The position numbers were made by a program, and so were the translations under genes. From contig PKXQ01000150.1 in NCBI GenBank assembly GCA_003132405.1, forward strand, positions 104,584 through 168,583: a DNA stretch of 64,000 nt, written 5' to 3'. This stretch comes from Acidobacteriaceae bacterium (GTDB lineage Bacteria > Acidobacteriota > Terriglobia > Terriglobales > Acidobacteriaceae). The notes under the pieces are model-generated. The model did no database searches and was not told the origin of the DNA. It saw nothing but the letters and a program-made list of their open reading frames with translations. Shown here in pieces: positions 60,590-64,000 of the stretch. The stretch's first letter is position 1. Each line of letters begins with the position of its first letter.

Positions 60590-61297
60590 TCAATCGCCCG
60601 CCGGATCAATTCCGACGTCGAACAGCGTAGGCAGCAACTCCCCGGCTTTGCCTGTGAACGTCTCGTCGAAAGACGCGAGGTTGAGTGGTTCCTCCGGGCC
60701 GACGTAGAACGTTCGGGCTTTGGTCTGCCCGACGAAACTCGCTGCAGGCTCGACCACCCCTGAAGTCCCGATTGCAATGAAGACCGTGCAGACTTCCAGG
60801 GTGCGCAGGACACGATCCATACCAAACGGCCTTTCGCCGAACCAGCAAATATGCGGGCGGATCTTTCCGCCACACGTACAAAGCGGTACTTCGTGATAGA
60901 TATTCGTGTCGTCGAAGGGCAACTGACAGCGCTTGCAACGGCTCTTGAACAGCTCGCCGTGCATGTGGAGCGGACGAGAGCCCGCCTGCTCGTGCAAATT
61001 GTCGACGTTCTGCGTGCAGAGAAAGAGACGAGAACCCAGGGTGTGCTCCAGGGCTGCCAGCGCGCGATGCCCCGGGTTGGGCTGGGCAGCCGCTGCGACC
61101 GTTCTGCGCATGGAATAGAAGTCCCACACGAGCTGCGGATCTTGCCGCCATGCTTCCGGAGAGGCGACCTCTTCGATACGATAATTCCGCCATAAACCGT
61201 TCGCGTCCCGAAACGTCGGGATGCCACTCTCAGCGCTCATCCCTGCGCCGGTAAGCACGAACACCCGGTCAGTCGGCTTGATGTGAATCCGTTCCAT
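60590..61297 (-). CDS. cobB: Sir2-family NAD-dependent protein deacylase (SIRT5-type)
   Basis: A 235-residue sirtuin. NAD-binding blocks are GAGMSAESGIPTFRD (17-31) and CTQNVDNLHEQAG; the catalytic His113 lies in HMHGEL; zinc ligands are Cys121/Cys124 and Cys140/Cys142. Tyr61 and Arg64 in WDFYSMRR form the YxxR pair that recognises acidic acyl groups, so desuccinylase or demalonylase activity is expected in addition to deacetylation. ATG 61297 follows AAGGAG at 9 nt. It is the fourth gene after metK on the same strand, 169 bp beyond the 47-codon gene. Confidence 0.94.
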   Translation of the reverse strand: MERIHIKPTDRVFVLTGAGMSAESGIPTFRDANGLWRNYRIEEVASPEAWRQDPQLVWDFYSMRRTVAAAAQPNPGHRALAALEHTLGSRLFLCTQNVDNLHEQAGSRPLHMHGELFKSRCKRCQLPFDDTNIYHEVPLCTCGGKIRPHICWFGERPFGMDRVLRTLEVCTVFIAIGTSGVVEPAASFVGQTKARTFYVGPEEPLNLASFDETFTGKAGELLPTLFDVGIDPAGD

Positions 61298-61466
61298 TAG
61301 GGGCGTCTCCTTGCCTTGCGCAAAAGCTTCTTAATCGTCATTCGTTAGCGGGGTAGTTTGACAGAATGGATTTGACTTCAGACATTGTCCACGCCTTCAC
61401 TGGACACCTCTTCGCGTGTTCTTCAAATTCGTCGTACCAATCGCCGCCCGAACTTCTCAGGCGGAA

Positions 61467-61610
61467 TCACTTGGGGACGGTCATCTCTTCTTCGAAGTCC
61501 GGCACGTACGGCTGTGGTTTGTCAAAGAACGCCGACGCCAAACATTCCTCGCGGGTCTGTGGGGCATTGTGCGTTTGCATCATTGCAGTGATGGCGTCAC
61601 CGTTTTTCAT
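61467..61610 (-). CDS. Small protein of 47 residues, unknown function
   Basis: A short gene starting with ATG 61610 that overlaps the previous stop as ATGA, with GGGGAGGG 6-7 nt upstream, a strong ribosome site. The product begins MKNGDAITAMMQTHNAPQTR and ends in an acidic tail, FEEEMTVPK. It has no signal, membrane helix or recognisable domain. Translational coupling and the ribosome site make it a likely real gene of the metK operon. Its small size prevents any family call. Confidence 0.6.
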   Translation of the reverse strand: MKNGDAITAMMQTHNAPQTREECLASAFFDKPQPYVPDFEEEMTVPK

Positions 61611-61807
61611 TGCGACCCTCCCCTGCGATTGCGGACGAGCAGGGTGTCGGCGTCGTCATCGAAATCCGGCAGCGGACAGCCCTTCGGGTTGCGCTTCACC
61701 TCTGCGATGATAGCGAGTAGAGTTTCCAACGTCGGCATCTTCCCTGCCTTGATGAGACGCTGCGCCTCTGCTCGAAGATCAGACGGTTTGAGCGTTGGTC
61801 GTTTCAT
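61607..61807 (-). CDS. Small protein of 66 residues, unknown function
   Basis: ATG 61807 follows the metK stop by 2 nt, with GGGAGG inside the metK 3' end, which indicates coupled translation. The product begins MKRPTLKPSDLRAEAQRLIK and continues with a helix-rich LETLLAIIAEVK and a C-terminal acidic CPLPDFDDDADTLL then RNRRGGSQ. It resembles small cytoplasmic partner or antitoxin-like proteins in style only; no family is recognised. The frame's extension to 61879 lies within metK and is rejected. Confidence 0.65.
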   Translation of the reverse strand: MKRPTLKPSDLRAEAQRLIKAGKMPTLETLLAIIAEVKRNPKGCPLPDFDDDADTLLVRNRRGGSQ

Positions 61808-61809
61808 CG

Positions 61810-62994
61810 CTATACCTCCCAGGACTGGCCTGGCTTGCCGAAGTGGCCATAGTTCGTAGTTTTGCGGTATATCGGGCATAGGAGATTCAAACGCTCGATG
61901 ATCGCGGCAGGACGGAAGTCAAACGTGCGAACGAATTCCTCCGCTTCCCGCGCATCACCTGTTCCGAACGTATCGACCTTGACCGACACAGGTTTCGCTA
62001 CTCCGATCGCATACGCCACCTGAATTTCCACGCGACGCGCCAATCCGTGCAGTACGACCTGGCGGGCAACATATCGACAGAAGTAAGCTGCGCTGCGATC
62101 CACTTTCGACGGGTCCTTGCCACTGAACGCACCTCCGCCGTGACGAGCAGAGCCGCCGTACGTGTCGACAATTATCTTTCGTCCTGTGACGCCACAATCA
62201 GCGGAAGGGCCACCTTGTAGAAAGCTGCCAGCTGGGTTCACGGTGAACAAAATGTGATCGGAATACCAGTCACCCAGCGCTCGGGGGGCGAGCCGACTGG
62301 TCACATATTCCAGGATGTAGTTGCGATCTACATCGGGCGAGTGCTGGGTAGAAACGAGAATGCTCGATACGCCGATGGGCCTGTCGCCCTCGTACAAGAC
62401 TGACACCTGTGTCTTGGCGTCGGGACGAAGCCAGGGTTCCACACCGGCGTGACGGTCCCGCGCGAGCACTTGCCCAAGCCGATGGGCGAGCGCGATAGGA
62501 AGCGGCATGAGCTCGGGCGTTTCGTCCGTTGCGTAGCCAAACATGATGCCTTGATCACCGGCGCCCTGCTCTCCTCCCGGGTCAATGCGGTCGCCTATTC
62601 CTCGAGCTATCTCAGGCGCCTGTGCCGTAATGAATTGCTGGATTCGCACCCCGTCGGCATTGAACTCCTGCGTCGGGTCCGTGTAGCCGACTTCGCGGAT
62701 GGCGTCGCGTGCGATTTGGTCGTAATCGACGCCGGCTGCCGAGCTGATCTCGCCGGCTAAAATGACATTCGATCCCTTACATAGCACCTCGCAGGCGACG
62801 CGGGCATGCGGGTCCTTTGCCAGGTGGGCATCCAGAATCGAATCGGCGATGTAGTCGCAGACCTTATCTGGATGTCCCTCAGATACCGACTCGGAAGTGA
62901 AAGTGTACTGGCGTAGGTCGAAAGCCAGAAGATTAGGAGCCTTGACTTGTTGGGCTGTGAGCTGAAATTGATGTTCGTCTTGTTTGGGTTTCAT
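61810..62994 (-). CDS. metK: S-adenosylmethionine synthetase
   Basis: A 394-residue MetK making SAM from methionine and ATP. Signatures: FTSESVSEGHPDKVCDYIAD with the catalytic His, QGAGDQGIMFGYATDET, CGVTGRKIIVDTYGG and GGGAFSGKDPSKVDRSAAY. It is complete but divergent from the E. coli type in the central part (RIQQFITAQAPEIARGIG), and has about 30 extra N-terminal residues (MKPKQDEHQFQLTAQQVKAP) before FTSESV. ATG 62994 is used with GAGGTG upstream; the frame continues to 63108 through the riboswitch terminator and is not coding there. A SAM-I-clan riboswitch precedes it. Possibly an accessory copy on an integrated element. Confidence 0.95.
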   Translation of the reverse strand: MKPKQDEHQFQLTAQQVKAPNLLAFDLRQYTFTSESVSEGHPDKVCDYIADSILDAHLAKDPHARVACEVLCKGSNVILAGEISSAAGVDYDQIARDAIREVGYTDPTQEFNADGVRIQQFITAQAPEIARGIGDRIDPGGEQGAGDQGIMFGYATDETPELMPLPIALAHRLGQVLARDRHAGVEPWLRPDAKTQVSVLYEGDRPIGVSSILVSTQHSPDVDRNYILEYVTSRLAPRALGDWYSDHILFTVNPAGSFLQGGPSADCGVTGRKIIVDTYGGSARHGGGAFSGKDPSKVDRSAAYFCRYVARQVVLHGLARRVEIQVAYAIGVAKPVSVKVDTFGTGDAREAEEFVRTFDFRPAAIIERLNLLCPIYRKTTNYGHFGKPGQSWEV

Positions 62995-63032
62995 TGATGC
63001 AAGCACCTCTTCGTTGGCATGCATCAGGAGCC

Positions 63033-63066
63033 CAGAAAGCAAAAGGCCGCCCGGCATCAGGCGGCT
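63033..63066 (-). terminator. Riboswitch expression platform: intrinsic terminator upstream of metK
   Basis: On the minus strand GCCGCC, a short loop, GGCGGC, then CTTTTGCTTTCT. It lies between the SAM aptamer and the metK start. Its 5' arm can alternatively pair with GCGG immediately after the aptamer's P1 helix. Confidence 0.8.
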
Positions 63067-63089
63067 GCTTCCCGCGGAGATCTTAGCTT

Positions 63090-63196
63090 CGGAACTTGCA
63101 TTCCGCACATCGAGCGGTGTTGCCGCTCAAGGCACCGTGGCGTCTCCTGGCCCGGTTGCCGGACTCGGGGTGACCCGAGCCGCTCCTGATGTTGAC
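63090..63196 (-). promoter_or_regulatory. SAM riboswitch (SAM-I clan, SAM-IV or SAM-I/IV-variant-like) of metK
   Basis: On the minus strand P1 is ACATC...GATGT (63192-63196 region to 63107-63111). It is followed by AGGAGCGG, a hairpin CTCGGG-TCAC-CCCGAG, the conserved CCGGCAACC, then CACGGTGCC, and a second hairpin GAGCGG-CAACA-CCGCTC before P1 closes. CGGCAACC and GGTGCC in this order and spacing, upstream of metK, are the hallmarks of the SAM-I clan. A downstream GGAA...TTCC hairpin and a terminator complete the switch, which should turn off transcription when SAM is abundant. Confidence 0.82.
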
Positions 63197-63199
63197 CGT

Positions 63200-63228
63200 A
63201 CACTACCCCGCTTGCTGGGCGCTGTCAA
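63200..63228 (-). promoter_or_regulatory. Sigma-70-type promoter of the metK leader
   Basis: TTGACA (63228-63223) and TAGTGT (63205-63200) with a 17-bp spacer on the minus strand. A start about 7 nt on would begin the transcript just before the aptamer's P1 strand. Confidence 0.7.
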
Positions 63229-63301
63229 CGAGCTTCAGTAATCGCCTGTAGATTACTTGAGAGAACCACGATGCATTTGTTGCGCAGCCACCTTTGTGCC
63301 A

Positions 63302-63330
63302 TTTTCACGAGACGCCGGAGCAGCTAGAAT
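63302..63330 (+). promoter_or_regulatory. Promoter-like sequence of the second leader
   Basis: TAGAAT at 63325-63330 is a good -10 element; TTTTCA at 63302-63307 is a weak -35 at 17-bp spacing. Transcription would begin at about 63337, at the 5' edge of the second aptamer. Confidence 0.5.
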
Positions 63331-63337
63331 GTAGGTA

Positions 63338-63407
63338 GCATCAGGACAGCGCGAAAGCGCGACCAACCGACTTGGAGAGCACGGTGGTATGGGCTTCGGC
63401 CCGATGC
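63338..63407 (+). promoter_or_regulatory. Second SAM-I-clan-like riboswitch, divergent from the metK switch
   Basis: P1 GCATC (63338-63342) pairs with GATGC (63403-63407). In order follow AGGA, a hairpin GCGC-GAAA-GCGC, ACCAACC, CACGGTGGT and a hairpin GGGC-TTCG-GCCC. The layout matches the metK leader, with compensating changes: P1 A-U to G-C, and GGC/GCC around CAACC...GGTG changed to ACC/GGT. The following GCGGCATAATGCAAAGTTC parallels GCGGAATGCAAGTTC of the metK leader. SAM or a related ligand is inferred. Confidence 0.65.
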
Positions 63408-63431
63408 GGCATAATGCAAAGTTCTCCACGA

Positions 63432-63463
63432 GCCGCCTGATTGTGGGCGGCATTTCTTTTTTC
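63432..63463 (+). terminator. Intrinsic terminator of the second riboswitch
   Basis: GCCGCC (63432-63437), loop TGATTGTG, GGCGGC (63446-63451), then ATTTCTTTTTTC. It has the same stem as the metK leader terminator and precedes the small-protein gene by 38 nt. Confidence 0.85.
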
Positions 63464-63500
63464 GGTACCTGATGCGCGTTCGCTCGAAGGAGACACGCGC

Positions 63501-63734
63501 ATGCACTCACCTCAAGACGACGCTGCTTCCAATCCCACTCCCAATCCTGACGTTCTCGTCAACAACGTCGGGACACTGTACACATTCTGTCCCTTGACTC
63601 TTCGGGCTAAGGAATGGATCGACGAGCATGTTCAGAATGATGCCCAGTGGTTCGGGCACGCACTTATCGTCGAACATCGTTGTGCGTGGGGACTGGCTCA
63701 GGGGATGAAGGATGACGGGCTGGTGCTGTTATGA
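63501..63734 (+). CDS. Small conserved-looking protein of 77 residues under the second riboswitch
   Basis: ATG 63501 follows GAAGGAG with good spacing. After a disordered Asn/Pro-rich start (MHSPQDDAASNPTPNPDVLV) comes a compact domain: NNVGTLYTFCPLTLRAKEWI, HVQNDAQWFGHALIVEHRCA, LAQGMKDDGLVLL. I recall similar small proteins ('...fll.P.t..a..Wi.ehl..da...g.a..VEhrY...i..g...dGl') in many bacterial genomes, frequently near mobile genes; they have no assigned function. It overlaps the next gene by ATGA. Expression should depend on the riboswitch upstream. Confidence 0.7.
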   Translation: MHSPQDDAASNPTPNPDVLVNNVGTLYTFCPLTLRAKEWIDEHVQNDAQWFGHALIVEHRCAWGLAQGMKDDGLVLL

Positions 63735-64000
63735 GCATCGGAGAGGAGAAGCAATGGAAGGACCTTCAAGAACTGCGAAAAATGTACTCCCTAAAAGACA
63801 CCCGTACGCCCTCCGGGAGTTTAACCGCCCACGGGCTGCGACTGGAGCGCGATCTTGAGGGATATAGAAAAGATATTCAAGAACTGAATCGGATGTTCGC
63901 CCTCGAAGGCCCACGTCGGGAGAGCCGTGTCCTAAAGACACAACACGACGGTGACCAGAAGGGAGCCAATGATTCAGCCGATTACACACGCGACGCGGCA
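63731..64000 (+). CDS. Hypothetical charged protein, 3' end outside the window
   Basis: ATG 63731 overlaps the stop of the preceding gene (ATGA). Ninety residues are visible, with no stop before the right edge. The sequence is highly charged and helical, starting MSIGEEKQWKDLQELRKMYS, with a probable coiled coil (LRLERDLEGYRKDIQELNRM). No domain is recognised. Coupling to the 77-residue gene places it in the second riboswitch's transcription unit. Confidence 0.55.
   Translation, partial: MSIGEEKQWKDLQELRKMYSLKDTRTPSGSLTAHGLRLERDLEGYRKDIQELNRMFALEGPRRESRVLKTQHDGDQKGANDSADYTRDAA

Follow-up and report, generated by a model that had tools for sequence, protein, structure and literature searches.

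A divergent pair of SAM-I/IV riboswitch leaders, each with two predicted expression platforms, beside an acidobacterial metK gene

Near the end of a 64,000-nucleotide (nt) stretch of DNA from an Acidobacteriaceae bacterium (assembly GCA_003132405.1, contig PKXQ01000150.1, positions 104,584–168,583 of the forward strand), referred to here in its whole length as the window, two structured leaders stand back to back and point away from each other. Leader 1 precedes metK, a gene of S-adenosylmethionine (SAM) synthesis, and leader 2 precedes two small open reading frames (ORF1 and ORF2) of no known family. What do these two RNAs sense, at how many stages might each act on its gene, and does the unit belong to the host or was it brought in? 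The answer favored here, with a probability of about 0.7, is that they are two divergent OFF riboswitches of the SAM-I/IV family, one for metK and the other for ORF1–ORF2, each with two stacked expression platforms, in a unit of foreign and possibly mobile origin. Genomes, contigs and loci of the survey are designated below by G, C and L numbers, respectively.

The two aptamers and the hairpins behind them

A search of positions 62950–63700 against all of Rfam, with permissive filters, yielded two places for the SAM-I/IV model (RF01725), one in each leader and both above the gathering threshold of 41.1 bits. Two lower-scoring matches of the same clan overlap these aptamers and were dropped by the tool; a third listed match, with an E value of 3.4, was attributed to chance. 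Each leader also has an intrinsic terminator and, further 3', a hairpin at the ribosome-binding site (RBS), and each of these structures is associated with a sequence complementary to the 5' strand of aptamer helix P1 (an anti-P1 copy). The features are as follows:

63074..63197, minus strand: leader 1, SAM-I/IV aptamer of metK (RF01725, 46.1 bits)
63200..63228, minus strand: likely promoter of leader 1, read by eye, TTGACA (63228–63223), a 17-base spacer and TAGTGT (63205–63200)
63046..63065, minus strand: intrinsic terminator of leader 1 from the pattern scan, GCCGCCTGATGCCGGGCGGC and a T-run, holding anti-P1 copy 1 (CCTGATG)
62995..63031, minus strand: second platform of leader 1, with anti-P1 copy 2 (63031–63022) overlapping the 5' arm of the RBS hairpin
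63333..63433, plus strand: leader 2, SAM-I/IV aptamer (RF01725, 48.7 bits, E value 8e-07 for 751 bases searched)
63302..63330, plus strand: promoter of leader 2 from the pattern scan, TTTTCA, 17 bases and TAGAAT
63432..63451, plus strand: intrinsic terminator of leader 2 from the pattern scan, GCCGCCTGATTGTGGGCGGC and a T-run, holding anti-P1 copy 1 (CCTGAT, 63436–63441)
63468..63475, plus strand: anti-P1 copy 2 of leader 2 (CCTGATGC), complementary to GCATCAGG of the aptamer
63472..63502, plus strand: RBS hairpin of leader 2, ATGCGCGT-TCGCTCGAAGGAGAC-ACGCGCAT, from the platform scan, with arms that co-vary in relatives

A sequence-only reading of this locus had described two SAM-I-clan leaders back to back, starting about 140 bp apart, and had proposed a covariance-model check, which both leaders pass with scores above gathering; the aptamers are divergent and start exactly 136 bp apart. 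The marks on which that reading drew (P1 as ACATC/GATGT and GCATC/GATGC, AGGA, CAACC, CACGGTG and the terminators with T-runs) are present. It had also taken leader 2 for a compact variant, and this has to be given up: leader 2 belongs to RF01725 as an ordinary member, its P2 (GCGC-GAAA-GCGC) being short, and does not form a separate class. Both leaders are members of the SAM-I/IV riboswitch family by covariance score, and SAM binding is predicted for them. The core letters UC, G, CAACC and GGUG, taken as the SAM contacts, are intact by eye. Each leader stretch, folded alone, is more stable than its shuffles (z scores of -3.5 and -3.4). P2 is continuous in both covariance-model alignments; SAM-I/IV is defined by a P2 without internal loop, unlike SAM-I and SAM-IV (PMC2864571, Weinberg et al., 2010), and has P4 but lacks PK-1 (PMC6890682). 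The leaders resemble RF01725 in score, in P2, in the presence of P4 (GGGC/GCCC in leader 2) and P5, and in the pseudoknot between the P3 loop and the 3' tail (TGGAGA/TCTCCA in leader 2); they differ from it in forming a divergent pair, in that one of them precedes small phage-like genes of no known family, and in having a terminator and a separate RBS hairpin each. With default filters, Rfam missed leader 2 in the whole window and reported the metK leader alone, as did the RF01725 search of the organism's own genome. Because default filters skip a leader of 48.7 bits, the RF01725 counts from fast scans are lower bounds, and may be too low for members with a short P2.

Both -10 boxes place the transcript start at about P1. 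The sequence-only reading had given each leader a promoter and a terminator; the pattern scan returned both terminators and the promoter of leader 2, and found no promoter for leader 1, the candidate for which was read by eye and has a perfect -35 box and a -10 box matching at three of six positions. By itself the scan is weak evidence, with counts in 1,101 bases little above those in shuffles (promoters, 1 versus a mean of 0.4; terminators, 2 versus 1.1). A -10 box like that of leader 2 stands before its homologues in G300, G297 and G558, by eye.

What the sequence-only reading overlooked is the translational half of both expression platforms, a further hairpin 3' of each terminator that encloses the Shine-Dalgarno sequence and reaches the start codon. 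In leader 1, this hairpin is TGATGCA-(TGCCAACGAAGAGGTGCT)-TGCATCA, with AAGAGG inside, immediately 5' of the metK ATG; in leader 2, the Shine-Dalgarno sequence lies in the loop and the 3' arm reaches into the ORF1 start codon as far as its second base. In both leaders a copy of CCTGATG(C), the complement of GCATCAGG in the aptamer, is joined to the 5' arm, and the anti-P1 copy in the terminator is shorter than or equal to the one at the RBS hairpin.

These features suggest how the leaders may work. Leader 1 would control metK and leader 2 the small-gene operon ORF1–ORF2, and transcription from each promoter would begin almost exactly at P1. When SAM is bound, P1 would form, the terminator would fold and most transcripts would stop; a transcript that escaped would still be held off, because anti-P1 copy 2 could not pair with the occupied P1 strand and would instead close the hairpin around the Shine-Dalgarno sequence and start codon. 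Without SAM, the 5' strand of P1 (GCATCAGG) would pair with an anti-P1 copy, the terminator or the RBS hairpin would open, and the gene would be on. In this way, a single aptamer probably operates two OFF platforms stacked one after the other, and the two-stage platform is well supported as a prediction from sequence comparison.

That comparison covers 39 RF01725 places, 28 of them above the cut-off, which 34 of 396 acidobacterial genomes yielded with 10 candidates scored per genome. They are 29 loci (L194–L222), nine others and leader 1, to which leader 2 was added as the fortieth leader. The rule applied called for a hairpin with a Shine-Dalgarno-like motif inside, ending no more than 8 nt from the start, and for an anti-P1 helix of at least seven pairs that overlaps the 5' arm of this hairpin. 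Of the 40 leaders, 18 matched it, as did 93 of the 2,992 controls (3.1%); these combine each of 374 starts of long ORFs, unverified as genes, from the window and L225–L244 with eight aptamer 5' strands, and still include the leaders' own genes. The 18 matches are counted with a terminator misread as an RBS hairpin (G015), two near copies (L208 and L210), none of which was removed, and L211, for which the helix picked is not the CCTGATGC one. A stricter version of the scan gave 13 of 40 leaders versus 99 of 3,710 controls. Terminators were found in 20 of 44 leaders (the 40 and four homologues of leader 2), a count that includes two misread RBS hairpins (L215 and G395) and misses two terminators visible by eye (L197 and G558); 19 of them, including those of leaders 1 and 2, overlap an anti-P1 helix. 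Both scans are positive for leader 1, leader 2, L198, L199, L209, L217 and G203b, and for G395 and G015 through misreadings only; L211 has both hairpins, with no anti-P1 found in its terminator. In the homologues of leader 2, the terminator scan is positive in G300, G318 and G297:C49 and not in G558, and the RBS hairpins of all four were read by eye.

Origin of metK and the small genes

The genes of the unit are the following:

61810..62994, minus strand: metK, S-adenosylmethionine synthetase of 394 amino acids, gene of leader 1 (Pfam S-AdoMet_synt_N/M/C, E values 1e-36 to 3e-59)
61607..61879, minus strand: small ORF of 90 amino acids downstream of metK, of no known family
63501..63734, plus strand: ORF1, 77 amino acids, gene of leader 2, a rare small protein, phage-like by its modelled fold and the context of some relatives
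63731..64000, plus strand: ORF2, 120 amino acids, of no known family, overlapping ORF1 by 4 bases and running past the window end

The closest MetK proteins among the loci examined (61–68% identity) lie behind SAM-I/IV leaders in G221, G395, G193, G421 and G125, and G379 has one at 64% that adjoins neither of its two RF01725 places. Near-complete matches in genomes of the same genus or family are only 51–57% identical to the window MetK (fragments, 41–63%), and none of the 20 metK loci scanned, of 29 in relatives, has a SAM riboswitch above gathering with default filters, under which short-P2 members can escape notice. In a tree of 94 MetK rows (10 linked to SAM-I/IV and 27 from viruses, with virus and cell rows thinned to every third locus, cellular rows L172 and L186 kept with an internal stop as X, and the bootstrap not settled), the window MetK shares a group, supported at 100/100, with five MetKs from distant families that are linked to SAM-I/IV leaders, its place inside that group receiving 86/30. 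The other five SAM-I/IV-linked rows fall elsewhere. MetKs of its own genus and family fall into another, acidobacterial group, which has 30 rows (93/84, at a fork without a star) and takes in G219 as well. Copy number was checked in 13 genomes. G221, G395 and G379 have a MetK of the window kind (64–68%) and a second one, 48–54% identical to that of the window; G219 has two, at 52% and 56%; G260 and G188 have one ordinary MetK and one distant one (30–35%); and G125, G421 and G193 have the window kind only. The window's MetK is thus foreign to the genus, and its lineage was probably acquired by this organism.

The small genes are rare. Pfam, PHROGs and PADLOC gave nothing convincing for ORF1, ORF2 or the 90-residue ORF below metK, and ORF1 was found in its own genome only among 297 genomes across the phylum; its relatives surfaced in genomes of the same genus. 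The ORF1 profile matches five of 200 relatives' genomes, its own included; the match in one of the five, G519, is weak. A blastn search of positions 61300–64000 in 24 genomes of the genus, the organism's own included, recovered leader 2 with ORF1 in G300:C244 (75%), leader 2 in G297:C49 (78%) and G318:C100 (83%), and a stretch resembling leader 1 in G297:C109 (73%); in G558, of another genus, leader 2 stands 5' of ORF1, with a recombinase-like fragment 3' of it by eye. A 33-residue stretch of the 90-residue ORF is found again, at 61%, in a genome of the same genus (L272), 3' of leader 2 and ORF1. In G300:C209 (L275), about 0.7 kb separate an ORF1 relative from an integrase (PHROG E value 6e-19), and in G297:C40 (L276) another relative is about 3 kb away from the large subunit of a terminase (E value 5e-117). 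The best AlphaFold2 model of ORF1, built from four sequences, has a mean predicted local distance difference test score (pLDDT) of 84.5, with 44 to 80 for the other four of the five models; fold searches matched it to proteins of uncultured Caudovirales (30–36% identity, E values down to 3e-06) and to an unnamed viral entry (43%), and to no solved structure in the PDB at an E value of 0.001 or below.

A foreign, possibly mobile origin of the unit is moderately supported by these data. The sequence-only reading had proposed a divergent SAM regulon: the arrangement of metK on one side and small genes on the other is as it described, and leader 2 does have homologues that are built alike (G300, G318, G297 and G558), but an inherited host regulon is probably not what is seen, because the 20 relatives' metK loci scanned with default filters had no SAM riboswitch above gathering, the metK is foreign and the context of ORF1 is in part phage-like. 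More specifically, the unit may be a mobile, probably phage-derived SAM regulon, in which an acquired metK and small phage-type genes under dual-platform leaders would let the host's SAM pool be read and replenished with little leak; the unit would most likely enable the element to make SAM and to read its level. This proposal is tentative, its chances lying somewhat short of even, and it is made less likely by the absence of virus rows grouping with the window MetK and by the phage-near ORF1 copies without leader 2.

These points belong to a series of observations that weigh against the favored reading. None of the 27 virus rows falls in the MetK group of six. Of five strong ORF1-family members, two show no leader 2 in blastn or by eye, and these are precisely the ones near the integrase (G300:C209) and the terminase (G297:C40); in the latter, a transposase (E value 3e-30) directly adjoins ORF1. 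Leader 2 of G318 precedes a different small ORF, and that of G297:C49, with part of its core lost, is probably in decay. The listed contamination of G297 and G300 is 7%, and for that reason contigs assigned to them may be stray. Beside the unit on the window's contig, which ends 574 bases past the window, no phage gene was seen, and the divergent SAM-I/IV pair is found in this genome alone among those examined. In IMG/VR, SAM-I/IV occurred in none of the 50 metK records searched, of the best 80 fetched; ORF1 alone and the ORF1 alignment gave 15 and 38 seed-matching stretches with no encoded relative; exact matching of a 19-base core of leader 2 gave none; and these searches turned up no phage record that has either leader. 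A degenerate SAM-I/IV core matched two IMG/VR contigs, both times inside the coding DNA of phage structural genes, and these matches were put down to chance.

Several of the same observations would suit a host methionine/SAM regulon, acquired once and now serving chromosomal housekeeping rather than a phage or other mobile module. Only one MetK was found in the window's assembly, the related SAM-I/IV-linked MetK is also the sole one found in G125, G421 and G193, and the virus rows and the surroundings of the unit are as just described. However, the assembly is 88.8% complete, and a housekeeping metK may for that reason be missing; G221, G395 and G379 have the window kind beside a second MetK; and the copies of ORF1 near an integrase or terminase, with its phage-like modelled fold, count against such a regulon. 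This explanation is a serious one, at odds somewhat below even.

SAM is the methyl donor needed by many restriction and defence enzymes. If the mobile origin favored here is true, small phage-type genes would have their expression tied to host SAM, and a unit combining SAM sensing with SAM making would join the few riboswitch systems on phage-like elements. Riboswitches are rare in phages, an example being the glutamine riboswitch of phage Melnitz (PMC9004378). The present leaders would share with it the placement of a metabolite riboswitch on mobile DNA; the ligand class and the genes differ. A Sir2-family gene (60590–61297) separates the metK unit from the chromosomal stretch; it may also be mobile, because a second copy (73% identity) is present on contig C35 of the same genome.

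Covariation, competing folds and known forms of double control

The second hairpin could be given a simpler account, in which these are ordinary transcriptional SAM-I/IV leaders, the terminator suffices and what lies at the start codon is a chance hairpin or a local translation feature indifferent to SAM. Terminators with anti-P1 are present, several leaders have the terminator only (e.g. L195, L204, L219 and L220), and hairpins near starts are common, the 3.1% of controls passing the rule being a measure of this. The 18 matches among 40 leaders stand against it, as do the leaders with an RBS hairpin and no detected terminator (e.g. L202, L207, L212 and L213) and the pattern of change in the leader-2 group, where the anti-P1 stays near CCTG[AG]TGC while the rest of the hairpin compensates. 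The hairpin arms are GCGCGT/ACGCGC in the window and GCGTG/CACGC, GCGTGTT/AACACGC, GCCCA/TGGGC or GCCCAT/GTGGGC in the others; TGC/GCA is constant, pair 4 is G-C or C-G, pair 5 C-G or T-A and pair 6 G-C or A-T. Shuffled arms did as well in 32 of 2,000 trials with the five leader-2 sequences and in none of 2,000 with 19 sequences, which shows only that the arms are not interchangeable, the arms having been selected as paired and their full pairing arising by construction. Control of transcription alone is, on this evidence, unlikely.

Pairing in the aptamer is kept in the five homologues: in their MAFFT alignment, 90.1% of cells are paired versus 30–43% in slid versions, and the pseudoknot is 82.8% paired, with three pairs changed on both sides and several mismatches (GGAGA/TCTCC becomes GGGAC/GTCCC in G558, by eye). 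To the series of adverse observations must be added that the four pairs changed on both sides are a modest result, equaled or exceeded in 40 of 500 shuffles, and that further pair types are no better than shuffles (320 of 500). The folding energies are likewise mixed. Two ligand-free folds, one with anti-P1 copy 2 paired and the other with P1 and the RBS hairpin, were compared in 10 leaders, pseudoknots being left out. The respective energies, in kcal/mol, are -71.5 and -63.6 for leader 2, -102.4 and -94.9 for leader 1, -66.4 and -66.9 for G300, -57.8 and -56.8 for G558, -54.9 and -57.5 for G318, -80.9 and -78.5 for L209, -95.4 and -90.0 for L198, -88.9 and -86.7 for G203b, -94.6 and -85.9 for L211, and -64.2 and -65.4 for G419. 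The gap is below 9 kcal/mol in all 10 leaders, a balance that ligand binding may be able to tip. The minimum is the anti-P1 fold in four leaders (the two of the window, L198 and L211) and the P1 and RBS fold in one (G300). On the adverse side, neither is the minimum in the remaining five (G558, G318, L209, G203b and G419), and in G300, G318 and G419 the anti-P1 fold is no more stable than the P1 and RBS fold.

That leader 2 is a decaying duplicate of the metK leader without useful control is very improbable: the copies in G297:C49 and G297:C109 do look damaged by eye and precede broken or very short ORFs, but leader 2 of the window outscores the metK leader, and its homologues in G300, G318 and G558 retain the core, the RBS hairpin and the terminator (in G558 seen only by eye); ORF1 persists in G300 and G558, with 68–73% identity and 37 invariant columns in four members.

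The two-stage platform favored here differs from the forms of double control described in the reviews consulted, which are one shared hairpin or two riboswitches in series. In the dual attenuation platform, the RBS lies inside the 3' side of a terminator ending no more than 10 nt from the start (PMC2258182, Barrick and Breaker, 2007). One aptamer likewise acts on transcription and translation there, as is predicted here, but the window leaders have two separate hairpins with an anti-P1 copy each, and in leader 2 the terminator ends at 63451 and the start codon begins at 63501, 49 nt intervening. Bi-mechanism systems, such as SAM-II/SAM-V and others, are two riboswitches in series (PMC9481103, the Table 1 of which has a column for ‘Multiple Expression Platforms’). 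They resemble the present leaders in a terminator stage followed by an RBS stage and in their response to SAM, predicted in the present case; they have two aptamers, whereas a single SAM-family place was found per leader in 62950–63700, one aptamer serving both stages. Nothing closer appears in the accessible portions of PMC7270179 and PMC10907184. Among the matches listed in the literature search, which consisted of titles and abstract openings with few subscription journals and make a weak negative, there was neither a single SAM-I/IV aptamer with a serial terminator and RBS platform nor a SAM-I/IV riboswitch on acidobacterial mobile elements. The locus offers a directly testable case of one aptamer running two separate expression platforms in series.

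Other SAM-I/IV leaders in the survey

A small protein with the motif HHLWxNGxxWWxA, weakly similar, below the cut-off, to DUF6538 and arm-DNA-binding domains, is encoded behind SAM-I/IV leaders L212, L213, L221 and L238 (G395), and more loosely behind L202. The RBS hairpins of such leaders (L212 and G395) bear a CTCCGGGTGTC-type anti-P1, and metK lies 3' of the gene in G125, G421, G221 and G395. In G203, two SAM-I/IV leaders (L233:1233-1921 and L198/L225) stand before similar, weakly RadC-like proteins (E value 0.057 over 70 residues), and recombinase-like genes are seen by eye near one of them. The gene after leaders L201, L208 and L210 encodes what we take to be a pyridoxal phosphate enzyme of the threonine-aldolase type. 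Genes for MoxR-like AAA ATPases stand, by eye, behind leaders L226, L227 and L231 (G260:C9); the L226 protein has a weak PADLOC match to mad8 (E value 6e-06) and the L227 protein none. Pairs of SAM-I/IV matches on the same strand are present in G188:C692 (L226) and G260:C9 (L231), about 1.4 kb and 8.3 kb apart, respectively.
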